Assembly (NCBI GenBank): GCA_903845155.1
Contig: CAIMWN010000082.1
Coordinates: forward strand, 1 to 36,824
Length of the DNA stretch: 36,824 nt
Direction: 5' to 3'
From: Oligoflexia bacterium
GTDB taxonomy: Bacteria; Bdellovibrionota; UBA1018; CAIMNF01
Below the pieces are notes generated by a model. It was given only the letters and a program-made list of their open reading frames with translations. It was not told where the DNA came from and did no database searches. Position numbers and translations under genes: made by a program. This document shows positions 3,226-33,853 of the stretch, piece after piece. Within the stretch, counting starts at the first letter, position 1, and the number at the start of each line of letters is the position of its first letter.

Positions 3226-4806
3226 TCACGCGTTCCCGATGGGGAGCTTTGCGAGATTGATTTTATCTTGTGAAAGGAATTTAGTCATATCCACGCCCTT
3301 TTTCATATCCTGAAAAACAAGCTCCGCAATCTCTCCATCCATCAGTAATGGTGAGTTCTTCATCAATGGGGCTGTATCGCTCATACGGCCCAAATAAACC
3401 TCGCGAGCGGCTGGGGTGAGGTATTTTACATAACTAAAAGCGGTACGGTAGAGAACCTCATCTGCATCATTTTGAGTCTGTTCTTTCTCCGTCACCACGC
3501 GATTCAACTGTTCAGAGGCCAGTGTCTTCTTGTACAAAAGGTCAATGGGGGCAAAATTATCGGGGTAATCGAGTTTACCCTCTTCTTTTTCCATCATTGC
3601 TTTGAGAACATGTGCAGGATTACGTGCCACATAACCGCCTTTTAACATGCAAAGCAAAACATCAATCACATGATAAACTTTTGAATATTTCCGGCCAGAA
3701 TATTCCACCACACTTTGATCTTTATCGAGCTTGCGCTCTAATGCTTCCTCATTCACTCCAATCGCTTCAAAAAGTGTTTTGTTGTAAACGATGTTTACCA
3801 TATTCAAGAATCGGGCAATGTGACCTGAGCCCAGTAAATAATTCTCGGGTTGTTCAAATGGAGTGAGTCTCAGAACATGACTCTTCCCTACTTTTAAATA
3901 TTCATTTTTGTAAATTTTCTTTTCTTCTAATTCTTCTAACGCTTTCTCAAGACGAGACATAATCGTACTCGGGTAAAGTTTTCCAGATATTGGAATGAGC
4001 GACGCGAGATCCATGAGTTCAAAATCGATCACACCAGATTCATTTTCAATTTGTTGTTTGAATAAAACCAGACACAGAATTCGTTGCGCAAATCCCACAT
4101 CCAGCTGCTGATAGATTTTTCTGTTAATGGTCGCAGTATAGCTTTTCAACAAATTGGTAAGAATATGACGGCCAATTTTGACGGAGCATGAATCTTGGAT
4201 TTTCGTGCTCCCACGGCTGCTCACAATGGTAGCGTCATCCAGAATATTCATCATTAAGCTGATGTAATCAGCGCGATCTTCGCTGTAATAAGCATTCGTG
4301 GATTCAATTTTTGTAATGCAAAGTTTTTTAATTGAATTTCTGATCTGTTCGTAACTTCTTCCTGAATCATTCATTTTAAGACGCGTGCACACCGTGTTTA
4401 AGCGAAAGTTCACAATTCCAGTTTCAGTTCTTCCCTGTTCATCCCATAAATCCATGAGACAAAAAAGTACCTGCATATCAAAGGCCCCAGGTAGGCCCTC
4501 CTTCACGAGCTTGCCGTCTCTTTCGATTTCTGCCGTCGAGACGGAGATTCTGCTCTTGATCACTGTTCCGTTCTTTAAAACAGGAAGTGAGTGCGTAATA
4601 CGGCCACTCTTATCCGTTTGTTTTTTGTCGAAAGAGAAAATAGGAAGAAGCATAAAATTGGCTTCAACCGAGAAGTTCGGGCGGTTGGAGACATCAAGTT
4701 CATAAGTCCGATTGACTTGCATTAATTCGTTTTTAGGCTCTAATTCAACGATTTCTTTAGACAAGCTTTCAGAGTGGAACAAATCATTTTGTGAATGCTC
4801 TTCCAT
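3226..4806 (-). CDS. repA: Replication initiator (RepA/RPA-like, iteron-binding type)
   Basis: A protein of 526 residues, likely the initiator that binds the neighbouring iterons and opens the origin. Segments such as FDMQVLFCLMDLWDEQG, VCTRLKMNDSGRSYEQIRNSIKKL and FAQRILCLVLFK, followed by a second helical block, look like the paired winged helices of the RPA (PF10134) and Rep_3 initiators. The assignment rests on this resemblance plus the iterons directly upstream. The C-terminal third (about residues 340-526) is longer than in small-plasmid Rep proteins and I do not recognise it. A GGGGGAA box 5 nt before the ATG at 4806 fixes the start; an in-frame ATG at 4836 lies inside iteron 1. That iteron (4823-4840) ends 16 nt before the start codon, which suggests autorepression. 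Confidence 0.78.
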   Translation of the reverse strand: MEEHSQNDLFHSESLSKEIVELEPKNELMQVNRTYELDVSNRPNFSVEANFMLLPIFSFDKKQTDKSGRITHSLPVLKNGTVIKSRISVSTAEIERDGKLVKEGLPGAFDMQVLFCLMDLWDEQGRTETGIVNFRLNTVCTRLKMNDSGRSYEQIRNSIKKLCITKIESTNAYYSEDRADYISLMMNILDDATIVSSRGSTKIQDSCSVKIGRHILTNLLKSYTATINRKIYQQLDVGFAQRILCLVLFKQQIENESGVIDFELMDLASLIPISGKLYPSTIMSRLEKALEELEEKKIYKNEYLKVGKSHVLRLTPFEQPENYLLGSGHIARFLNMVNIVYNKTLFEAIGVNEEALERKLDKDQSVVEYSGRKYSKVYHVIDVLLCMLKGGYVARNPAHVLKAMMEKEEGKLDYPDNFAPIDLLYKKTLASEQLNRVVTEKEQTQNDADEVLYRTAFSYVKYLTPAAREVYLGRMSDTAPLMKNSPLLMDGEIAELVFQDMKKGVDMTKFLSQDKINLAKLPIGNA

Positions 4807-4822
4807 TAGTATTCCCCCACGC

Positions 4823-5437
4823 TTTCGTGTAACCACGGTAGATGATTAATCGGTATTCTGTTCGTAGTAGTAGGTATTTTTTTTATGATAGAAAGAATAC
4901 TTACTAACATACGTTTAGAAAATTCTGCCGAATTCTCCCAAATATTTGTAAATATTGAATTAACGTTTATGCATAAACACGGTGGTTTTTGCGTGTAAAC
5001 ACGGTAAACTTTCGTCCACTCACGGAGAAGCTTTCGTGCAGTCACGAGAGCCTTTTGTGCACCCACGGTACCACTTTCGTGTAAACACGGTAGCAAAATA
5101 CACGAAAACAATTGAAGTTTCGTGCTCTCACGGTAGTCTTTCGTCTGGACACGGCGTACTTTCGTGCAAACACGGTATGGTGGTAAAAAAAGTGAAATGA
5201 GTGATAGAAGGTCCGCTTTCGTGCAGACACGGTCATCGATTTTATAGCCTAAATCGCGGTGAAAAGTCGTACCAACCATGGTTATTCTTAGTCCCTTACT
5301 CACATTGTCAGGGATAATTTTACCTTTCGCAACATCTCTTTCGCAAAAACACGGTATTCTTTCGCTGAAACACGGTTTGATTCTTTCTAACCGTGTTTGC
5401 ACGAAAAAACGATCCATTAAACCGTGTTTGCACGAAA
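4823..5437. repeat. oriV: Replication origin: array of 15 iterons
   Basis: The consensus is TTTCGTGCAAACACGGTA. Plus-orientation copies have CACG starting at 4834, 4978, 5000, 5021, 5043, 5064, 5086, 5129, 5150, 5171, 5228, 5350 and 5371; two inverted copies (AACCGTGTTTGCACGAAA) lie at 5389-5406 and 5420-5437. Spacings in the main block are 22, 21, 22, 21, 22, 43, 21 and 21 bp, two helical turns, with one position skipped near 5107. The two inverted copies are 31 bp apart, about three turns. The core is CGTG-N4-CACG, a dyad with a variable centre (TAAA, CAGT, CTCT, CAGA and others). Copies at 4978, 5021, 5150, 5350 and 5371 are degenerate in the left half. No other gene in this stretch is credible; reading frames across it are produced by the repeats. 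Confidence 0.9.
4841..4975. other. AT-rich candidate unwinding region of the origin
   Basis: This stretch between iteron 1 and the main array is clearly richer in A and T than its surroundings. It contains AATATTT-gt-AAATATT (4941-4956, 7-bp arms) and the 14-bp palindrome GTTTATGCATAAAC (4965-4978), which runs into a degenerate iteron. It is the natural candidate for the DNA unwinding element and for the promoter of the initiator gene, but no promoter can be assigned with confidence and no good DnaA box was found. Confidence 0.5.
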
Positions 5438-5440
5438 ATA

Positions 5441-9225: not shown

Positions 9226-9729
9226 TTAACCCCTCTTCGCTTCCTTCACCCGATTGTATTCAAGAGCATGTTTCTTGAAAAAATCCTGAAGGGCTTCATC
9301 CATGGCGTCTTGCATATTGAGACCAAGGGTGTCGCAGTATTTTTTGAAAAGCGTTTTTGAATCTAAAGTAACTGAATACGTGTGTTTTACGAACTCTTTC
9401 TTCATTCCTTCAAACTTAAGGCCATGCTTTTGAGCAAGCATGATAATTTGATCTTTAGAAAGGGTGTCGCTTGCAGATTTTACTACCGTGTCGGAACTCA
9501 TTACGGTAGCTCTCGCTGTCGTCGGTGTAATGGGTGCTGAATTTAAAACTTCACGCGTTTCCCGAATCGCAGCCGAAGCAGCAATTGTTTCCACGTCATT
9601 ACGGAGTTCAATCATTTTCTTTGGCTCTGGGGCAGAGACCGCCTCTGCCACGGGTTCAGCAGTGATGATGGTTCCGAGTTTTTTCGCTTTTCTTGCCCCA
9701 ATCCCAATATTAAATTCATTCATCGCCAT
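9226..9729 (-). CDS. ParA partner protein, probable ribbon-helix-helix DNA-binding protein
   Basis: A protein of 167 residues whose start ATG overlaps the parA stop (ATGGCGATGA, 10 bp), so it should be translationally coupled. Residues 1-90 are low in hydrophobics and rich in Ala, Glu, Thr and Val, probably flexible, as in partner proteins that stimulate ParA with a mobile N-terminus. A polar helix (SKDQIIMLAQKHGLKFEG) follows. The C-terminal part, HTYSVTLDSKTLFKKYCDTL then NMQDAMDEALQDFFKK, has the strand-helix-helix pattern of RHH proteins: a TYSVTL strand and two helices. It has no ParB HTH or CTPase motif. By position and pattern it should bind the centromere, probably the GTAACAC units upstream of parA. 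The fold is inferred, not proven. Confidence 0.72.
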   Translation of the reverse strand: MAMNEFNIGIGARKAKKLGTIITAEPVAEAVSAPEPKKMIELRNDVETIAASAAIRETREVLNSAPITPTTARATVMSSDTVVKSASDTLSKDQIIMLAQKHGLKFEGMKKEFVKHTYSVTLDSKTLFKKYCDTLGLNMQDAMDEALQDFFKKHALEYNRVKEAKRG

Positions 9730-10478
9730 AATAGCACCTCTTTCGCTAAGTTTTTATAGTCTTCTGCACCAATACTTTTTGAATCAAAACTGAAAATATC
9801 TTGGCCTTTATTGCCGGAAACGCTGAGTTTTACGTTGTCCCTGATCTTTGTCTTCATGACCGCATTTTCAAGTTCATGGCCTTTAAACATTTTTGAAAAG
9901 GCTTCCTGCGTTTTTGAGTTCTTCGTCATGGTGAAAAGGATTCCAGAAACTTTTAATTCTGTATTGTCTTCTTGGATCACTTCTACCGTTTCTAAAAAGT
10001 GGGCAGTGGCTTTTGCATCCATATCATTTGGCTTCATTGGGATCAGAACGTCTTCGGCTGCATTGAGCGAAATTTGCACAAATACACTGAGCGAGGGAGG
10101 TGTATCAATAATGCAATAGTCGTAATTTTTGGTAATTTTACCGAGTAAGGTTTTTAGTCTCATCGGTCCGTCTTTCATTTTCGAAAGCGCACCATCAAAA
10201 GCTGCCAACCGTTCGCAGCCTGGAATTAGGTCTAGGTTCGTTGCAATAGTGACGATAGCCGCATTTGGATCCAATTGGGGGGCGATGAGGAGCTCAGACA
10301 CGGTGACCGTTCCCTCTTCTGTTACATCGACCATAAAGAAGTCAGTTAAACTTTGTTGTGGGTCCATGTCGACCATCAGCACCGACTTCCCTTCGCGGGC
10401 CAATGCCGCTGCAAGGTTTGCTGCTGTGGTGGTCTTCCCCACTCCGCCTTTTCCATTGCTTACCGCAATTCTTCTCAT
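9720..10478 (-). CDS. parA: ParA-family partition ATPase
   Basis: A protein of 252 residues without an N-terminal HTH, so of the short (type Ib-like or Soj-size) class. The deviant Walker A is KGGVGKTT (residues 10-17, signature Lys K10 and catalytic Lys K15). Walker A' is VDMDPQQSLTDF (D37, D39) and Walker B is YCIIDTPPS (D125). The ATPase would form nucleoid-bound patterns that separate replicon copies. GGAG 7 nt upstream supports the ATG at 10478. The next gene overlaps its stop by 10 bp and the operon ends in the terminator at 9141-9173. A possible promoter (TAAACA at 10558-10553, TATATA at 10535-10530, 17 nt apart) lies upstream, with an iteron-like sequence just downstream of the -10. 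Confidence 0.95.
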   Translation of the reverse strand: MRRIAVSNGKGGVGKTTTAANLAAALAREGKSVLMVDMDPQQSLTDFFMVDVTEEGTVTVSELLIAPQLDPNAAIVTIATNLDLIPGCERLAAFDGALSKMKDGPMRLKTLLGKITKNYDYCIIDTPPSLSVFVQISLNAAEDVLIPMKPNDMDAKATAHFLETVEVIQEDNTELKVSGILFTMTKNSKTQEAFSKMFKGHELENAVMKTKIRDNVKLSVSGNKGQDIFSFDSKSIGAEDYKNLAKEVLLWR

Positions 10479-10558: not shown

Positions 10559-10687
10559 GATGTCTACTGTGATTTATTTGACGTAGGTGGCACCCACAGT
10601 AGCCACACTACTCCACCTGAAGAAACTGTAGACCCATACGGGAGAAGGTAAACACAGTGGGTGTGGTGTAGGGAGTGGGGATGGCGA

Positions 10688-10815
10688 GTAACAGTGAAAA
10701 GTGTTACATCGCGGTGTTGAAAGAGTGGTGTTACTCAAAAGTAACACCTGTTTTCGTTCAAGAATTTACAATTACGATCAAGAGTAAAGCGCGCAGTAAC
10801 ACCTAAAAGTAACAC
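10688..10815. repeat. parS: Candidate centromere (parS): three 20-bp units of GTAACAC heptamers
   Basis: Each unit is heptamer, NNAAAA, heptamer, with the heptamers 13 bp apart. Unit 1 (10688-10707) has GTAACAG, TGAAAA, GTGTTAC. Unit 2 (10728-10747) has GTGTTAC, TCAAAA, GTAACAC. Unit 3 (10796-10815) has GTAACAC, CTAAAA, GTAACAC. The three units show convergent, divergent and tandem orientation. Unit 2 is part of a perfect 9-bp inverted repeat (10727-10748). The position upstream of parA, as in many type Ib systems, and the RHH-like partner support a centromere or operator role. Confidence 0.65.
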
Positions 10816-10887: not shown

Positions 10888-11322
10888 TCATACCTCAACG
10901 GAAGAGGGTTTAAATTTTGAGAGGTAGGCTTCCACTGCCGATCGAAGAAATCTGCGATGTCCACCAGGGGTCGCTTGAAATTTGAGTTCACCTCGTTCGG
11001 CGAGTCTTCGAACGGTTTCGTCCGAAACACGAATGAGTCGAGCAACTTCACTTGTTGAGAGGGTATCGCTTTCAGCAATCGAAAAGACAGCTTTCGAGCG
11101 GGTAGGGGAGGGCAGTGTTTGTTGGGAAGAAGTCATGAGGTTCATCTTCGAGGCTAGTTCCCGTCGTACCTTCATGATGAGCATCTCTGTCTGTCCTACG
11201 TCGCTTGGGCGATAGGGCTCTGCAACTCGATAATCAAAGTCGGGTGAATAGATCGTAAGGTAGGGATCGATTACTTGAATGACTAAGGGGTACTTTTCAG
11301 GGCTAAACGTCTTGTTTTTCAT
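10888..11322 (-). CDS. Excisionase/MerR-type HTH DNA-binding protein
   Basis: A protein of 144 residues. The C-terminal part, LSTSEVARLIRVSDETVRRL then AERGELKFQATPGGHRRFLR, is a clear excisionase/HTH_17 winged helix with the GGHRRF wing seen in MerR-like proteins. The N-terminal part (YPLVIQVIDPYLTIYSPDF) resembles the short strands of HicB-like domains, and a helix (SDVGQTEMLIMKVRRELASKM) and a polar linker follow. AAAAGGAATTCC upstream of the ATG at 11322 favours that start over one at 11349. It is read leftward, 409 bp upstream of parA, across the GTAACAC units. It may regulate the par operon or be an adaptor of the replicon. The HicB resemblance is weak. Confidence 0.72.
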   Translation of the reverse strand: MKNKTFSPEKYPLVIQVIDPYLTIYSPDFDYRVAEPYRPSDVGQTEMLIMKVRRELASKMNLMTSSQQTLPSPTRSKAVFSIAESDTLSTSEVARLIRVSDETVRRLAERGELKFQATPGGHRRFLRSAVEAYLSKFKPSSVEV

Positions 11323-12044: not shown

Positions 12045-13784
12045 TTATTTCTTTGAATGAGCTCTTTTGAGGCGGGCATGAAGAGCGCTCGCTTTTGCAG
12101 GAGTCAGGCTTGGATGTTTCTTCGACACAGCCAAGAAGTCATAGTCACCTGCGAGATAGATACTTACGTTGGTTCCAAGTGCCTTCAGTTGAAGAGGTTT
12201 CTTCGTGGCAGTGGTTTTACGCTTTCTCGATGCTTTTCTTGAACTCATGGAGAATGACTTTGCCGTTACAGCAAGGGTCGTTCTTCCTAACTTACCTGCA
12301 CCATGGTTGATCGCTGGTCGGCCTGCCAATAGACCACCTGTGCTTGTAGCATAAGTTGCGCAACCATCAGACAATCCAGATTGGTATGCAGTTGCATAGG
12401 CAGTGTTGTAACCATCTGTATAACCTGTTTGGTATTGATCAGTATAGCCTGCGTTGTATGAATCGTTGTAGCTCGTAGCATATGCACTTGCATAGGCGGA
12501 AGCATAGGCTGCTGCATAGGCGGGCGCATTTCCGGAAGCGTATCCAGACGCATACCCTGCCTGATAGGTTTGAGCAGAGGAACTGTTGTACGCTCCTTGA
12601 TAAGCGATTGCATAAGCCGTGTTGTATGCAGTGGTGTACACCGAGTTGTAAGCTGCATTGTATGCACTAGAATACGCGCTTGCGTAAGTTGCATTGTATC
12701 CGTCGTTGTAACCAGCAGGCGCACCTGCTGCTGTTCCATCAGCTTGACCTTGTGTAATGGTCGTGTAGTCGTTTAAGCCAGCACTGTATCCGGTCGCATA
12801 CGAAGTTAGTCCTGGTGGTACCGTAGTGGCAGCAGCATAGCCACGATTGTAACTCGTATTATCCCGTGCAGAATTATAACCACTGATGTAACAAGCGTCA
12901 GTCGTAGTTCCTGATCCTCCTAATGTTCCGGGTTTACCAGCATACTTGGTGCTCATTCCAACTGGTTTATTCCAGTTGGTGAAACCATTGGTGGGAGCGG
13001 CTCTTCCTGCTGTGCATCCTGTTCCAGCACTTCCATCAGTATAACCTGCATTGTATCCATCCGTGTTTCCATCGGTGTCGCCGAGGGTGTTCCCTGCATT
13101 GTAACCCGCAGTTTGTCCTGGAGAATACCCATCGTTGGTTCCATCTGCGTTACCAGCAGTGTCTCCAGCGTTAGTTCCATCAGTGGTACCGGCAGCTTCA
13201 CCCGCTGCAGTTCCATCGCTGACGCCTTGATTGTAAGAAGCAAGGCCATCGGCAGCACCATGGCTCGCGCCATCTGTTGTTCCAAGTGAGGTACCATCGT
13301 TTTGTCCGTCAGTGGTTCCTACTGAAGTACCATTGGTGTAGCCCACAGAGTTTCCATCGGCCTGTCCTAGAGACACGTTAGAATTATAGGAACTGGTATA
13401 AGCTGCATTGTAAGCATTGTGATAAGCCGCATAGAGCCCAGCATTTTTACCGTCATTGTATGCATTTGCATCCCCGTCGGTAATTCCTTTGTTATAGTCA
13501 GTTTGATTGTCAGCAATTGCTTGCTGTTTACCTAAGTCATAATTTGAGCCGGCACTTCGGTCGCATGGAGTAGCCGTGGGTGTCGAATGCGGTGTCGGCG
13601 TTGGAGTCGGTGTTGGGGTTGCTGGCGTTGGAGTGGGTGTTACAGTAGGAGTGGGAGTGGGTGTTACAGTAGGAGTGGGAGTGGGTCCAGGGCCCGTTAC
13701 TGCTTTCTTACATGCAGGCACTACGAGAAAAGTGCTGAGGACTAACAAACTTACAGCCATAGAGCTCTGATAAAACTTTTTCAT
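12045..13784 (-). CDS. Large lipoprotein of Gly/Ala-x3 tetrapeptide repeats
   Basis: A protein of 579 residues. The N-terminus (MKKFYQSSMAVSLLVLSTFL then VVPAC) gives a probable lipobox with C25 as lipid site; the Pro at -2 is unusual. A Pro-Thr linker (about 30-70) follows. Residues about 85-250 and 310-480 keep a small residue (Gly or Ala) at nearly every fourth position, e.g. GTTDGTNAGDTAGNADGTND and AYNAAYNSVYTTAYNTAYAI. The first block is Gly/Asp-rich and the second Ala/Tyr-rich. A basic Ser/Lys tail (SRKASRKRKTTATKK) and a short folded end (LAGDYDFLAVSKKH) close the protein. The pattern resembles the deca-GX3 motif of Yae1/Lto1, repeated many times. A surface fibre or scaffold is possible. 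Long frames in other phases come from the 12-nt DNA periodicity. Confidence 0.75.
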   Translation of the reverse strand: MKKFYQSSMAVSLLVLSTFLVVPACKKAVTGPGPTPTPTVTPTPTPTVTPTPTPATPTPTPTPTPHSTPTATPCDRSAGSNYDLGKQQAIADNQTDYNKGITDGDANAYNDGKNAGLYAAYHNAYNAAYTSSYNSNVSLGQADGNSVGYTNGTSVGTTDGQNDGTSLGTTDGASHGAADGLASYNQGVSDGTAAGEAAGTTDGTNAGDTAGNADGTNDGYSPGQTAGYNAGNTLGDTDGNTDGYNAGYTDGSAGTGCTAGRAAPTNGFTNWNKPVGMSTKYAGKPGTLGGSGTTTDACYISGYNSARDNTSYNRGYAAATTVPPGLTSYATGYSAGLNDYTTITQGQADGTAAGAPAGYNDGYNATYASAYSSAYNAAYNSVYTTAYNTAYAIAYQGAYNSSSAQTYQAGYASGYASGNAPAYAAAYASAYASAYATSYNDSYNAGYTDQYQTGYTDGYNTAYATAYQSGLSDGCATYATSTGGLLAGRPAINHGAGKLGRTTLAVTAKSFSMSSRKASRKRKTTATKKPLQLKALGTNVSIYLAGDYDFLAVSKKHPSLTPAKASALHARLKRAHSKK

Positions 13785-25587: not shown

Positions 25588-25713
25588 AAATAAACTCCTG
25601 GCGGTGAGCGCAAACATTTTATTTACACTCTTGCCCACTTATCATTGGAGCAAACTTTATACCATCGCAGAGGCTCGTCTCTTGCAGTTCAAGTCTTTAA
25701 AGGCGGAAACTCT

Positions 25714-28700
25714 GTGATTTTATCTGATTTATCCATCAAAAGACCAGTATTTGCATGGATGCTCATGTTCGCTTTACTCGTGTTCGGGGCAATTTCGTAC
25801 AGCCTGATGGGTATTAGTCAGCTTCCTGACGTGGATTTCCCAGTAATCACAGTTACGATTACATGGACGGGAGCCTCTCCAGATGTAATGGAATCTGCAG
25901 TGACCGATATTGTTGAGGACGCCGTGATGAGTGTCGATGGGATTCAGCGAGTTCAATCCGTTTCACAAGAAGGGTTGACTCAGATCACGGTACAGTTTGG
26001 ACTAAATCAAGATATCAATGCTGCGTTAGAACAAGTTCAAACCAGATTAGCGCAAGCACAGAAAACTCTTCCCCAAACGATCGATCCACCTGTAATTACG
26101 AAGACTAATCCTGCAGATCAACCCATTTTATGGATTGCGGCATATGGTGATCAGAATATCACTCTTCGTGATTTAGGGCTCTTTGTTCGCGATCATTTGA
26201 AAGACACCATTACCACGGTGAGTGGCGTCGGAGACGTTTTTTTTGGTGGGTATGTGGATCCGCAAATGCGAATATGGCTCGATAATACCAAACTCACTCA
26301 ACATGAAATTACGGCCCAAGATGTCATCGATGCAGTTACATTAGAGCACCAACTTTCACCGGCTGGGTACCAGGATATGGGCGACAAAGAATCCTATGTT
26401 CGAGTCCATTCAGAATTTTCAAATGCAAAAGAGTGTTCGGAGTTAGCTATTCCTGTTCGGGGTGGAAACTTACCAGTTTATAGAGTGATTCGGATTGCAG
26501 ACGTAGCCAGTTGTGAAGAAGGAACAGACGAAGTCCGTAGAATTTCCCGCTATCAAGGTCAAGCGCCGACGATTGGACTGGGTGTAATTAAGCAGCATGG
26601 TACCAATGCTGTAGCTATTTCAGATGCGGTCCGCGCAAAATTGAAGAGTCTTGCAGAAATTCTGCCTAAGGGAATGAAACTTGGAATTGTTACCGATGCG
26701 ACTGAGTTTATCCGCGACGCTATTCGTGAGTTATTGCGCACCCTCAGTCTTTCGGTTCTCCTCACTTCAATCGTTTGTTATTTGTTTTTGGGAAGTGTGA
26801 GTTCGGCTTTTAATGTAATCATTGCGATTCCTGTTTCATTGATTGGTTCCTTTATTTTTATGCATGCGTTTGGATTCACCATTAATACATTTACGATGAT
26901 GGCGCTCTCGCTTTCCATTGGTATTGTGGTGGATGATGCGATCATGATGCTTGAGAATATTACGCGTCATCGCGAACTCAAACAAACACAGGTAGAAGCA
27001 GCGATTAAAGGCGCAAGGGAAATCACTCCGCCAGCGGTAGCCGCATCGATTGCAATTTTAGCGATTTTCGTCCCTGTAGTATTTATGAACGGCATTATCG
27101 GTAAGTTCTTCTTTCAGTTTGGGATTGCATTATCTATAGCGGTTTTACTTTCTCTTCTGGAGGCGTTGACACTTGCTCCGATGAGGTGTGCTCAATTTTT
27201 AAATGTGGGGCGAGAAAATAAATTGACCCGCGCGGTAAATGTACTGATGCAGAAGACTGCCCGGATTTACGAACGTTCATTAGCGTTTGTACTTGCACAC
27301 CGTTGGCCGGTGCTATTGGGTTCTAGTTGTTTGTTTTTAGCTTCATTGTTGATCGCACGAACGTTACGGAGTGAATTCATTCCGTCGCAAGATCAGAGTC
27401 GGTTTATGGTGACTTTGTATACTAAGATGGGCTCCTCATTAAAATTCACAGACAGTGTCTTTAAATCAGCAGAGAAATTCTATGCAGCCCGAAAAGAAGT
27501 GGATGCCTATTACATTGCGGTGGGCGGTTTTGGTGGCGGTCTCGTCAATCAGGGCATCACGTTTCTCACTCTCAAAGCACCGTCAGATCGTCCTATCATG
27601 TCACCGTTCACTCATCGGCCAACACAACTGGATTTTATGAACTTAACTCGTCAAGAACTCAGTCGGATTCCAGGAGTAGAGAGGGTTTCAATTTTAGACC
27701 TTTCATTGACTGGTTTTAGTGCGCAGCGCGGGTATCCTATTGAATTTGAAGTCCAGGGGCCTGATTGGAACGAATTAGCAAGGCTTTCACTCTTGATTCG
27801 ATCAAAACTGAAGGACTCGGGGCTCATGGCTGATGTGGATACCGATTACAATCCAAACATGCCCGAGATTGAAATTATTCCCAAGCGGGGAAATACATCG
27901 TTACGTGGGTTTCCAGTGGCGAGCATTTCCAATACTGTTGCTGCAATGGTGGGCGGGTTAAAATTACTTCCTAATAAGTACACTGATGCTTCAGGGCATC
28001 GCGATGATATTCAGATTAAACTCATTCCAGGTCAAAACCAAGATGAAGTAGATATTAGCAAAATCCTAGTACGTAATCTTTATGGTGAAGTACGCCCTCT
28101 CAGTGATTTAGTGACCGAGGAAAGTGGGTCAACATTGCTTACCGTTACTCGTTACAATCGGGAACGAGGAATTAGTGTTTTCGGAAATTTCGCTACGGGA
28201 AAATCACAATCAGATGTGATCGACTATATTAAGAAATTGGAAAAGGAAATATTACCAGAAGCGTATCATATTACGTTTATCGGGAACACTGAGGCGTTCC
28301 GGGATTCCTTTCATAGTCTTCTTGTGGCATTGATCCTAGGAATCCTAGTTGCATACATGGTACTTGCAAGCCAATTTAATAGTTTTCTGCATCCGGTGGT
28401 GATTCTCCTCGCGCTCCCTTTTAGTTTAACCGGCGCCTTGCTGGCGATGAAATTGACGAGCACATCACTCAATATCTATAGTTTGATCGGAATTTTACTG
28501 TTGATGGGCATCGTGAAAAAGAATTCAATTTTACTCGTCGAATTTACCAACGTAAAAAGAAGAGAGGGAAATGAAGTGAACGCTGCATTGCTATTGGCAT
28601 GTCCAATTCGTCTTCGACCCATCTTGATGACCTCCATTGCCACCATTGCCGGTGCAGTGCCGAGTGCATTCGCCCTAGGCTCGGGTGCGGAATTGATTAG

Positions 28701-28926
28701 GCCCATGGCAATCGCCGTCATCGGTGGTGTAATCCTTTCGACTTTCCTGACTCTATTTGTGGTGCCGTGTGCGTATAGTTTGATCAATAGATTTGAAAGT
28801 CACAAAGCGGAAAAGGCCTTGACTGAAGCATTAGAAGTGATGGGCGAACATAAGGTGAACGTGATAGTTGAAAGTCCGGGGCTGACGCTAGGGTCGCCCA
28901 GTAATAAAAAGGAACAGATATCATAA
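25714..28926 (+). CDS. RND efflux pump, HAE1/AcrB-MdtBC type
   Basis: A protein of 1070 residues, full length for an inner-membrane RND pump that expels drugs or lipophilic compounds with proton import. The N-terminus SIKRPVFAWMLMFALLVFGA leads into the first span and VDFPVITVTITWTGASPDVM. With the GTG at 25714 as start, the span 4 relay acids fall at D407 and D408 (GIVVDDAIMMLENI), the same numbers as in AcrB, and the span 10 Lys is K936 in GIVKKNSILLVEF. AAAGGCGG 7 nt upstream supports this start over an in-frame TTG at 25645. No membrane-fusion or outer-membrane factor gene is next to it, which is unusual, so partners must be elsewhere. Substrate unknown. Confidence 0.93.
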   Translation: MILSDLSIKRPVFAWMLMFALLVFGAISYSLMGISQLPDVDFPVITVTITWTGASPDVMESAVTDIVEDAVMSVDGIQRVQSVSQEGLTQITVQFGLNQDINAALEQVQTRLAQAQKTLPQTIDPPVITKTNPADQPILWIAAYGDQNITLRDLGLFVRDHLKDTITTVSGVGDVFFGGYVDPQMRIWLDNTKLTQHEITAQDVIDAVTLEHQLSPAGYQDMGDKESYVRVHSEFSNAKECSELAIPVRGGNLPVYRVIRIADVASCEEGTDEVRRISRYQGQAPTIGLGVIKQHGTNAVAISDAVRAKLKSLAEILPKGMKLGIVTDATEFIRDAIRELLRTLSLSVLLTSIVCYLFLGSVSSAFNVIIAIPVSLIGSFIFMHAFGFTINTFTMMALSLSIGIVVDDAIMMLENITRHRELKQTQVEAAIKGAREITPPAVAASIAILAIFVPVVFMNGIIGKFFFQFGIALSIAVLLSLLEALTLAPMRCAQFLNVGRENKLTRAVNVLMQKTARIYERSLAFVLAHRWPVLLGSSCLFLASLLIARTLRSEFIPSQDQSRFMVTLYTKMGSSLKFTDSVFKSAEKFYAARKEVDAYYIAVGGFGGGLVNQGITFLTLKAPSDRPIMSPFTHRPTQLDFMNLTRQELSRIPGVERVSILDLSLTGFSAQRGYPIEFEVQGPDWNELARLSLLIRSKLKDSGLMADVDTDYNPNMPEIEIIPKRGNTSLRGFPVASISNTVAAMVGGLKLLPNKYTDASGHRDDIQIKLIPGQNQDEVDISKILVRNLYGEVRPLSDLVTEESGSTLLTVTRYNRERGISVFGNFATGKSQSDVIDYIKKLEKEILPEAYHITFIGNTEAFRDSFHSLLVALILGILVAYMVLASQFNSFLHPVVILLALPFSLTGALLAMKLTSTSLNIYSLIGILLLMGIVKKNSILLVEFTNVKRREGNEVNAALLLACPIRLRPILMTSIATIAGAVPSAFALGSGAELIRPMAIAVIGGVILSTFLTLFVVPCAYSLINRFESHKAEKALTEALEVMGEHKVNVIVESPGLTLGSPSNKKEQIS

Positions 28927-30661: not shown

Positions 30662-33600
30662 TTAAACAATGTGCCCAGCACTCTTATCAAAAGCGGGATC
30701 ATCTGGATCAAGGGAATTTGAAGTGACACTTCTTTTTTCATGCATCCAGGAGAACACCAGTGGAACGATGAATAGGGTGGTGAAGGTTGAAGCAAATAGT
30801 CCGCCCATTACTGCCCGCCCTAAAGGTGCCGTTTGCTCCCCGCCCTCGCCCAATCCTAAAGACATAGGAAGCATTCCGGCGAGCATCGCCAAACTGGTCA
30901 TCATAATGGGACGAAGTCTGCTCTTTGCTCCCTCTATCGCAGATCGAGTTGAATCTAGATTTACGAGTCGCAGTCGCTCTGAAAAGGTGACGATCAAAAT
31001 TGAATTTGCAACTGATACTCCAATCGCCATAATCATTCCCATAAATGATTCAATGTTGAGGGTAGAGCCAGTCAACATCAAAAAGGTAAGTGAACCAGCA
31101 AGTACGGCAGGTACTGTAGCGAGCACATTCAAAGAAAGAGGAATGGACTCGAAGTTTGCGGCGAGTAAAAGAAAGATGATGACAATCGCAATTCCTAATC
31201 CTGAAGTGAGTCCCCTAAACATTTCCGCATAGGATTCCATTTGTCCCCGTGAATAAACCTCCACTCCGCGTGGTTTTTCTAGTGTATTATTTTTGACAAT
31301 TTTATTGATATCATGAACTGCATGCGCCAAATCCATACCATGGAGATTGGCGGTAATGGTGATCATTCTTTGCATGTTGTAGCGATCATATTCGCCAACG
31401 CTCACGCCTTTGGTTACTTTTGCCACTTCACGAAGTTTTACTGCATTACCGTTGAAACCTGGCATCGGTAATTCTTCAATATCATGTACCGACGTCATAA
31501 AGTTCTGAGGAACTTGTACTTGCACTTGATAATTAATCCCGCTCTTAGGATCAGACCAATAATTTTGCGCGATAAAGCGACTTGAAGAAGTGGCTGGAAC
31601 CAATGCGCTGCCCACCTGATGGACAGTGATTCCTTGATAGCCAGCTTTTGTACGATCCACATTGACCGAGATGGTAGGAAAATCCAATCTCTGACCGAGC
31701 TGGATATCGCGGAGGTAAGGAAGAGTGCTGATTGCAGTCTTCAGTTTTTCTGCCAATTCTGCGTCTTTTTGAAGATCTTTCCCGGTAACCGCGATTTCAA
31801 TCGGAGTCGTCGAGCCATCACTCATCGCGCGATCGACCAGATTGGAAGGCTCAAAGGAAATGGTCACTTCGGGCATCTCTGTGCGCACCTTTTCTCTCAA
31901 ACGCTCTTTTAGTTCTGGCATTTTAATGGAAGTACCCTCTAAGAGCGCAACCTCAAGAACTGCCTCTTGTGATCCAGAAGTCCACAAGTGGATATTGTTC
32001 ACTGCGTAGTTTGAAGGTTGTGTACCCACAAACGCTACTGTGCTTTCTACATTGGCAGCACCCACGATTTGTTTAGTAAAATCAATTAATTTTAATGTGT
32101 AAGCTTCAGTATTATTAATCGATGTTCCAGTAGGGCCTCGAAGTCTCAATTGGAACTGACCGGCATCGGCTTGAGGGAAAATTTCAGCACCGATTTTGAC
32201 AAAACAATAGCCAGTGATCGCAAAGGCGATGAGAAAATAACTCAGGACAATGGTTTTACGATGATGGTTCAAAGCTTGAACCGCTAACTCGTATTTGCCT
32301 TTTAAACGATTAAAAAAGGAAGTCTCATCTTCGTGGTGATAGGTTTTTAACATCCAAGAACAAAGTACCGGCACGAGTGTTCTTGAAAGAATAAAGGAGC
32401 TGATCATGGAGAATCCTACACTTAAGGTTAGTGGCACAAAGAGAGCACGGGTGACGCCTTCCATAAAGAAAGAAGGAAGAAATACCGACAGTACGCACAA
32501 AAGTGTGAGAAGGGCAGGTTTCAAAATTTCATTCGTTCCATCTAAAACTGCTCGATTTACCGTTGATCCGCGCGCAAGATGCGAAAAAATATTTTCGATC
32601 GTGACCGTAGTTTCATCAACGAGAATTCCCACCGCGAGCGCAAGTCCGCCCAAGGTCATGATGTTCACTGTCTGGTTAAAAATCCATAGCGCAACCAAAG
32701 AGCTAAGTAGGGCGATGGGAATATTCAACACCACAATAAAGACACTTTGAAAATCACGCAAAAAGAGTAACACCATAAAACCCGTCAAAATTGCACCCAG
32801 CAGTGCTTCCATCACTAATGAAGCGATCGAGCGTCTGACGTAGCCGGATTGGTCGAATTCGTAGCTTACTTTAATATCGTCGGGCAAGGCTGCCTGAAAG
32901 CGGGGAAGATTTTCTTTGACTAGATCTACTACCGCAAGGGTGGAAGCATCTGAGCGCTTCGTTACGGGAATATACACCGTACGCTTCCCATTCACGAGCG
33001 CGTAACCGGTTGGAAGATCGGACGCGTCTTTTACCGTGGCGAAATCGCCTAAAAATACTGGATTGTTTTTCCCAGGTCGAAGAGGAGTTTTTAAGATTTC
33101 GTTAATATCGCTCACGACCCCATTTACAGGAACGATGGGATATTGGGTTCCGTCATGAATATTACCGGATGGAATGATTTGATTTGAGTCAAGCAATGCG
33201 TTGGTAACTTGATCAGCCGATAGGTCCAGAGCTGCTAGTTTTCTTGGATCGACTTCAATGACAATGGTTCGAGCACTGGCGCCGAAAGGCGGGGGCGCAG
33301 AAACTCCTTGAAGGGTGGCGAAAATAGGACGTACGTTATTCAGAGCGTAGTTTTGAAGTTCGCCGAGTGTTCTTTTTTCACTGGTAAAAACGAGTTTACC
33401 CACAGGTGAGCTTCCGGCATCAAAGCGGACTACAAAGGGGGGCACCGTTCCGGGTGGCATAAAAGCGCGTGAGCGATTTACTTCTGCAACTGTTTCGCCC
33501 ATTGCTTGAGCCATATCCGTTCCTGGATGAAATTTTAATTTAATGAGGGATGTACCTTGAATGTTTTTCGATTCAATATGCTCAATTCCAGAAATATAAA

Positions 33601-33853
33601 GGAAGTGGTATTCGTAATAATAGGAAAGGTAACTTTCCATTTGGGATGGATCAAGGCCTCCATAGGGTTGTGCCACGTAAATTACGGGTAGTGATAAATC
33701 GGGCAAAATATCCCTGGGCATTTTAATGACTGCTAATACTGAAAACAAAATGAGACTGGTTACCACCACCATTACGCTGATGGGTTTTCGCATCGCTAAA
33801 TTGACGATGGACGCGCCTTTACTGGGTGCTGATGGACTATTGATTTCTTTCAC
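30662..33853 (-). CDS. RND transporter with a non-canonical proton relay
   Basis: A protein of 1063 residues, full length. MRKPISVMVVVTSLILFSVL begins span 1, and MPRDILPDLSLPVIYVAQPY is the typical start of the first periplasmic loop. Span 4 has GILVDETTVTIEN, i.e. D413-E414 where AcrB has Asp-Asp. Span 10 has IGVSVANSILIV with A949 where AcrB has the relay Lys. This pattern belongs to a distinct subgroup of RND proteins, so coupling differs from AcrB. The start is the GTG at 33853 with AGGAAGG 8 nt upstream. No fusion or outer-membrane factor gene adjoins it. The other RND pump (25714) is only distantly related. Confidence 0.92.
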   Translation of the reverse strand: MKEINSPSAPSKGASIVNLAMRKPISVMVVVTSLILFSVLAVIKMPRDILPDLSLPVIYVAQPYGGLDPSQMESYLSYYYEYHFLYISGIEHIESKNIQGTSLIKLKFHPGTDMAQAMGETVAEVNRSRAFMPPGTVPPFVVRFDAGSSPVGKLVFTSEKRTLGELQNYALNNVRPIFATLQGVSAPPPFGASARTIVIEVDPRKLAALDLSADQVTNALLDSNQIIPSGNIHDGTQYPIVPVNGVVSDINEILKTPLRPGKNNPVFLGDFATVKDASDLPTGYALVNGKRTVYIPVTKRSDASTLAVVDLVKENLPRFQAALPDDIKVSYEFDQSGYVRRSIASLVMEALLGAILTGFMVLLFLRDFQSVFIVVLNIPIALLSSLVALWIFNQTVNIMTLGGLALAVGILVDETTVTIENIFSHLARGSTVNRAVLDGTNEILKPALLTLLCVLSVFLPSFFMEGVTRALFVPLTLSVGFSMISSFILSRTLVPVLCSWMLKTYHHEDETSFFNRLKGKYELAVQALNHHRKTIVLSYFLIAFAITGYCFVKIGAEIFPQADAGQFQLRLRGPTGTSINNTEAYTLKLIDFTKQIVGAANVESTVAFVGTQPSNYAVNNIHLWTSGSQEAVLEVALLEGTSIKMPELKERLREKVRTEMPEVTISFEPSNLVDRAMSDGSTTPIEIAVTGKDLQKDAELAEKLKTAISTLPYLRDIQLGQRLDFPTISVNVDRTKAGYQGITVHQVGSALVPATSSSRFIAQNYWSDPKSGINYQVQVQVPQNFMTSVHDIEELPMPGFNGNAVKLREVAKVTKGVSVGEYDRYNMQRMITITANLHGMDLAHAVHDINKIVKNNTLEKPRGVEVYSRGQMESYAEMFRGLTSGLGIAIVIIFLLLAANFESIPLSLNVLATVPAVLAGSLTFLMLTGSTLNIESFMGMIMAIGVSVANSILIVTFSERLRLVNLDSTRSAIEGAKSRLRPIMMTSLAMLAGMLPMSLGLGEGGEQTAPLGRAVMGGLFASTFTTLFIVPLVFSWMHEKRSVTSNSLDPDDPAFDKSAGHIV

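Follow-up and report, generated by a model that had tools for sequence, protein, structure and literature searches.

A two-block ladder of heptamers upstream of parA is a candidate type Ib-like centromere on a putative Oligoflexia plasmid

Results

Between parA and an upstream HTH gene of an Oligoflexia bacterium lies an array of seven heptamers which, judging from the genes around it and its conservation in two relatives, we consider likely to be the parS of a plasmid type I partition system that pairs ParA with an RHH-type ParB (type Ib-like). The array is probably also the operator of the parA operon. As a centromere, the candidate is probably new in both its heptamer consensus and its gapped 13-bp register. 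The window (the whole stretch of DNA analysed, to which positions refer) is a complete contig of 36,824 bases in a 337-contig assembly. On its minus strand the HTH gene is followed by the array, parA and the putative RHH gene.

3226-4836, minus strand: replication initiator, from a profile match to Pfam RPA (PF10134)
4822-5440, plus strand: replication-origin iterons CTTTCGTGYAAACACGGTA, about ten 20-bp copies, often 21-22 bp or multiples thereof apart
9226-9729, minus strand: putative RHH protein, 167 aa, with weak RHH matches and similarity to omega; the first 10 bp of the gene lie within the 3' end of parA
9720-10478, minus strand: parA, encoding a 252-aa ParA ATPase with a deviant Walker A motif (KGGVGKTT) and without an N-terminal HTH domain, from family and PDB comparison
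10577-10582, minus strand: GTCAAA element, about 105 bp 5' of parA
10688-10747, no strand assigned: candidate parS block A, five heptamers (10688 GTAACAG, 10701 GTGTTAC, 10714 GTGTTGA, 10728 GTGTTAC and 10741 GTAACAC, at steps of 13, 13, 14 and 13 bp), with offsets matched on contigs G004:C501 and G008:C114
10748-10795, no strand assigned: inter-block gap of 48 bp without sites (start to start, 55 bp in the window, 55 bp in G004 and 57 bp in G008)
10796-10815, no strand assigned: candidate parS block B, GTAACAC at 10796 and 10809 (a 13-bp step); a two-site block is also present in G004 and G008
10888-11322, minus strand: HTH_17/BldC-like DNA-binding protein, the upstream neighbour of the array, from family matches and orthologue comparison

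Layout of the array

The array spans 128 bp, with heptamers in both orientations 210-340 bp 5' of parA. An earlier note on this DNA had described it as three 20-bp units, and the letters are exactly as given there: GTAACAG-TGAAAA-GTGTTAC at 10688, GTGTTAC-TCAAAA-GTAACAC at 10728 and GTAACAC-CTAAAA-GTAACAC at 10796. Its count of five exact heptamers plus one with a final G likewise holds for the array (GTAACAC or its reverse complement five times within 10701-10815, and GTAACAG at 10688); in the whole window, 10 copies were observed where 2.5 are expected. A scan with the slightly wider pattern KYAACAC revealed a further site that the three-unit plan had missed, GTGTTGA at 10714 (reverse complement TCAACAC), 13 bp from the site at 10701 and 14 bp from that at 10728. 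Since this site sits at the ladder spacing, positions 10688-10747 form a single five-site ladder. A two-block 13-bp ladder of seven heptamers is thus a better parse of the array than three units, of which the letters and the 13-bp spacing stand.

GTAACAC and GTGTTAC differ in their middle three bases alone and share the form GTRWYAC. The heptamer is therefore nearly its own reverse complement, and inversion of a site needs just three base changes. When the 409-bp intergenic region between parA and the HTH gene was shuffled with dinucleotides preserved, five copies of any single heptamer arose in 13 of 5000 shuffles. In a scan of the window, 130-bp stretches holding the same heptamer five times were otherwise confined to repeat-rich coding DNA at about 13.6 kb. 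No second copy of the array was found elsewhere in the genome.

Conservation in two congeneric genomes

Across the 58 genomes of the class searched, the only ParA outside the window with E < 1e-40 was encoded on G004:C501, where it shares 70% identity over 128 residues before the contig stops inside the gene. The remaining half of this parA was not found on other contigs, and no close ParA relative beyond G004 was present in the genome contig and viral contig collections. Read in the direction of parA, the window sites lie at offsets 0, 13, 68, 81, 95, 108 and 121, and those upstream of the G004:C501 parA at 0, 13, 68, 81 (weak), 94 and 108; two of the seven positions are degenerate in G004. 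A pattern search of the family revealed a third locus, on G008:C114, with offsets 0, 13, 70, 83, 97 and 111; here the contig end cuts the array, and no close ParA was found in the G008 assembly. Site offsets across the three loci agree to within 3 bp over 111-121 bp. Block B reads TCAACAC and GTAACAC in G004, and GTGTTAC twice in G008.

With a matrix built from the window sites only, the geometry score of either relative was reached by none of 1000 shuffles. Site identity for the three locus pairs was 67, 93 and 76%, against 38, 49 and 32% between sites, the latter figures being generous since the better of two anchorings was taken. Among 369 genomes of the phylum, only two carried the core GTGTTAC-N6-GTAACAC-N6-8-TCAACAC, in both cases at an array locus, while control matches numbered zero. 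Between the window and G004, sites have flipped without moving at offsets 0, 13 and 108. Conservation in related loci, on which the earlier note had made its reading depend, was found in two genomes, where the position of the sites is kept and their orientation is not. Its proposal of a reader protein that tolerates both orientations, as RHH proteins would, gains support from the sequence comparison, direction being unfixed among relatives while position is kept.

The note had also remarked on the A-tract of the spacers as a possible source of curvature. G008 retains these AAAA spacers (TTTTGG and TTTTAA on the parA strand), but a general role for curvature is unsupported because the A4 spacer is mostly missing in G004.

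Viral contigs held no match to the three-site core; a looser pattern matched there four times, in simple repeats or other GTGTTAC clusters with no ParA nearby, and these matches were set aside. Among viral sequences, GTGTTAC clusters with some 12-14-bp steps occur in L078 (1859-2000) and L079 (78-158); neither has a ParA by tblastn and both are probably unrelated.

Partition genes

The KGGVGKTT motif of ParA lies near the N-terminus, and the AAA_31 match begins at residue 1. Relatives in the PDB include Soj-type ParAs, delta and ParF. The window ParA thus has the deviant Walker A motif and lacks the N-terminal HTH domain, as expected of the small ParAs of type Ib partition.

Family matches of the 9226-9729 protein were all weak, the meaningful ones being consistently to RHH proteins: PF21432 at 3e-4, over the C-terminal 58 residues and under the Pfam gathering score, and phrog_582 (Arc-like repressor) at 0.007. 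A single-sequence AlphaFold model was of low confidence (mean pLDDT 40) and was kept out of the fold search. Neither Pfam nor NCBIfam gave a match to the ParB family (HTH/CTPase type), and a parS of the HTH-ParB kind (type Ia or chromosomal) was set aside on this ground. Relatives of the protein were found neither in 55 genomes of the order nor in plasmid and viral collections.

Similarity to omega was assessed against the omega protein of pRE25 (69 aa as annotated), an omega-like sequence of pEOC01 being set aside for its divergent C-terminus. The RHH half of pRE25 omega aligns gap-free with residues 117-154 of the 9226-9729 protein, and none of 5000 shuffles scored as high; the omega tail LGAQKAKRNDTPISAK aligns with IGARKAKKLGTIITAE (1 of 5000 shuffles). 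Both figures are somewhat flattered because the two stretches had been spotted by eye before they were tested. BLASTP gave an E value of 0.022 for the tail, and phmmer returned no omega match. At the sequence level, the protein weakly resembles omega of the Inc18 plasmids in both halves. The stretch of tail that matches includes omega K10, the residue changed to alanine in a control peptide (PMC9499535).

Closer to parA, GTCAAA occurs 52-118 bp upstream of the gene in all seven loci compared (the window, L010, L012, L014, L015, L016 and L022; 104-118 bp in six of them). In five loci the element reads GTCAAAAAxATxTCTGA or nearly so, and the ParAs across the loci are only about 36% identical. 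It may be part of a promoter or an operator.

Plasmid context

The contig is by its sequence a plasmid or similar replicon, or part of one, since it carries a PF10134 initiator together with iterons. Its backbone and its partition genes point to different relatives: RepA (65% identical) and the HTH protein (61%) have G004:C48 among their closest, and the ParA (70%) has G004:C501. For this reason the array, parA and the RHH gene seem, on these comparisons, to have been exchanged as one module on a shared RepA/HTH backbone.

Several other features were observed. The HTH_17 protein (10888-11322, minus strand) has a conserved N-terminal domain (PEKYPLVIQVIDxxLxxYxPDFDYRVxE) that lacks a Pfam match and is common to close relatives. 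A predicted secreted protein of 579 aa, encoded at 12045-13784 on the minus strand, consists of short, degenerate repeats in which Tyr, Ala, Asn, Gly and Asp are abundant and likewise has no Pfam match. The contig carries two large RND-type transporter genes, at 25645-28926 (matching ACR_tran) and 30662-33853 (judged by sequence only). In a second HTH-parA locus of the same genome (L066, G000:C72, 15480-16345), the genes are separated by about 860 bp in which TTTGTAAGCAGTTTGTGA is repeated many times, probably the origin or centromere of another replicon.

Which protein reads the array, and what it is for

Two proteins had been put forward as binders, the RHH protein and the HTH_17/BldC-like protein. 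The gene of the latter is the immediate neighbour of the array, and proteins of the BldC/Xis type bind direct repeats head to tail. Nevertheless, we think it very unlikely that this protein binds the array. Its five orthologues, 49-72% identical, stand beside ParAs only about 36% identical to that of the window, and their intergenic regions contain not one GTAACAC or KYAACAC site; this includes the G005 orthologue (72% identical, with a nearly identical HTH) as well as the four others at 49-61%. Conversely, each of the three loci has a different gene 5' of the array, a SprT-like hydrolase on G004:C501 and a nucleotidyltransferase-like gene on G008:C114 (both named by eye) taking the place of the HTH gene. 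The motif is thus absent beside close relatives of the HTH protein and present where another gene replaces that of the HTH protein, which argues that the array goes with ParA and, by inference, probably with the RHH protein, the most likely binder on this sequence evidence. The G004 and G008 array contigs end before the expected position of the RHH gene, and searches for it elsewhere found no copy.

A position upstream of parA would also suit an array that is an operator only, through which the RHH protein or another regulator controls parA while the true centromere lies elsewhere. RHH partition proteins commonly double as repressors, and in TP228 the operator and the centromere are separate stretches (PMC5016525). 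We judge this reading unlikely, given that the array ends about 210 bp from the start of parA in the window and 311 bp in G004, beyond a usual promoter operator, whereas the conserved GTCAAA element lies far nearer, at about -105. Moreover, seven sites in 128 bp exceed what an operator usually needs, and no further copy of the array was found in the genome. That the array could be a second iteron set of RepA or an origin element is suggested by replication of the plasmid through RepA, with iterons 5 kb away, but is hardly tenable: the iterons at 4822-5440 are unrelated to the GTAACAC sites, and a matrix of the ten iterons scores the array at best -1.8, against 22-32 for true iterons. A score below zero led us to reject this identity. 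A role of the sites as RNA hairpins or as a transcript terminator has a similarly slight chance of being correct. Positions 10727-10748 do form a 9-bp stem-loop that is terminator-like on the plus strand, and RNA of the parA strand folds somewhat better than shuffles in all three arrays (z -2.6, -3.6 and -2.3). This excess is however expected from the inversion of the sites, the terminator-like tail sits opposite to the strand of the neighbouring genes, and the array had no match in Rfam. The window and G008 have the hairpin in common, but G004 forms different pairs and lacks it at the corresponding position, and an RNA identity was rejected on that basis.

Discussion

The reading that we favour, a type Ib-like centromere, is supported by the plasmid context and by a ladder kept in two relatives, as far as sequence comparison can tell, and it bears out the suggestion that a candidate centromere lies beside parA. 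Centromeres of type Ib are in general located 5' of the operon and contain direct and inverted repeats (PMC5016525); several short repeats of both kinds are found upstream of the window par operon. In the mechanism that we propose, each nearly symmetric heptamer would be occupied by one dimer of the 9226-9729 protein. Given the pseudo-symmetry of RHH dimers, it would matter where a site stands but hardly which way it points. Through the numerous basic N-terminal tails (IGARKAKK) that it displays, the assembled complex would act on ParA-ATP bound to DNA and trigger hydrolysis by ParA, so that plasmid copies are moved and separated. Occupancy of the sites would also repress the parA operon, as in the omega and ParG systems.

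It is possible, although we would lean slightly against it, that the array belongs to a subclass of its own among RHH centromeres, one where the positions of sites (13-bp steps, blocks 55-57 bp apart) are fixed by selection and their direction is not, with a nearly symmetric GTRWYAC heptamer and a gapped ladder of spaced dimers rather than the contiguous filament of omega. Were this so, ParA activation would not in general depend on contiguity; omega, in contrast to the gapped 13-bp ladder, reportedly needs contiguous heptads. Diverged DNA in which position is kept and direction left free provides a clean natural experiment on the way RHH partition proteins recognise a centromere. Additionally, the array seemingly travelled, as a module with parA, onto a RepA/HTH backbone; elsewhere this backbone is combined with another ParA, another RHH protein and another repeat. 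Such an exchange is relevant to the way in which plasmids switch incompatibility. Our search for described RHH partition centromeres from plasmids of the Bdellovibrio group found none, and no paper linking GTAACAC with partition and plasmids was found in the literature searched.

Comparison with known systems places these features in context. In the predicted type Ib PAR module of Paracoccus pMARC3, the proposed parS consists of three repeats of 13 bp within the promoter region of parA (PMC3832669). Compared by repeat layout, it resembles the window in its short repeats upstream of parA, but there the repeat unit itself is 13 bp, whereas the window has a 7-bp site at 13-bp steps. The ParF-ParG-parH system of TP228 is alike in its degenerate boxes with AT-rich spacers upstream of the operon (PMC5016525), in pairing ParA with a protein whose RHH part (putative in the window) is C-terminal and whose N-terminal tail is flexible, and in having further repeats between the centromere and the genes. 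It differs in that its boxes are tetramers rather than heptamers, and its ParF (206 aa in the PDB entry) matches the window ParA best over a stretch of the first 48 residues only.

Congeneric cassettes (G003:C8, G005:C103, G007:C18, G010:C25 and G004:C48) share the order HTH gene, parA, RHH gene with a homologous upstream HTH protein, and four of the five have a related RepA on the same contig. Their ParAs, however, are about 36% identical to that of the window, their RHH proteins (111-135 aa) have no detectable similarity to the window protein, and in place of a GTAACAC array G003, G007 and G010 have GATTCG/CGAATC repeats. In the interval between the HTH gene and parA of L014, L015 and L016, the repeated GATTCG/CGAATC includes the palindrome GATTCGTNCGAATC; these repeats are a candidate centromere of the related cassettes.

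The closest known system is delta-omega of pSM19035 and other Inc18 plasmids, which allows the 'unknown type' of the earlier note to be replaced by type I RHH (type Ib-like). In both systems ParA has no HTH domain (27% identity to delta over 222 aa), the sites 5' of parA are short, non-palindromic heptamers whose orientation is free, and the partner is a small protein, putatively RHH in the window, whose basic tail has the form GAxKAK(K/R). The WATCACW heptads of pRE25 follow one another without gaps, every 7 bp and pointing either way, immediately 5' of delta (parA) and of omega. For omega, contiguous gap-free heptads are needed for full activation of ParA; the direction of the heptads matters little, but a gap does matter (PMC9499535). 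Whereas omega heptads thus run contiguously and in several places, the window has one two-block array in which GTAACAC sites follow at 13-14-bp steps with spacers of 6-7 bp. Membership of the delta-omega family proper was set aside on the heptads, a single isolated WATCACW match being found upstream of the window parA. Finally, omega is a protein of 69 aa encoded in a separate transcription unit, while the putative RHH protein of the window has 167 aa and its gene starts inside parA.
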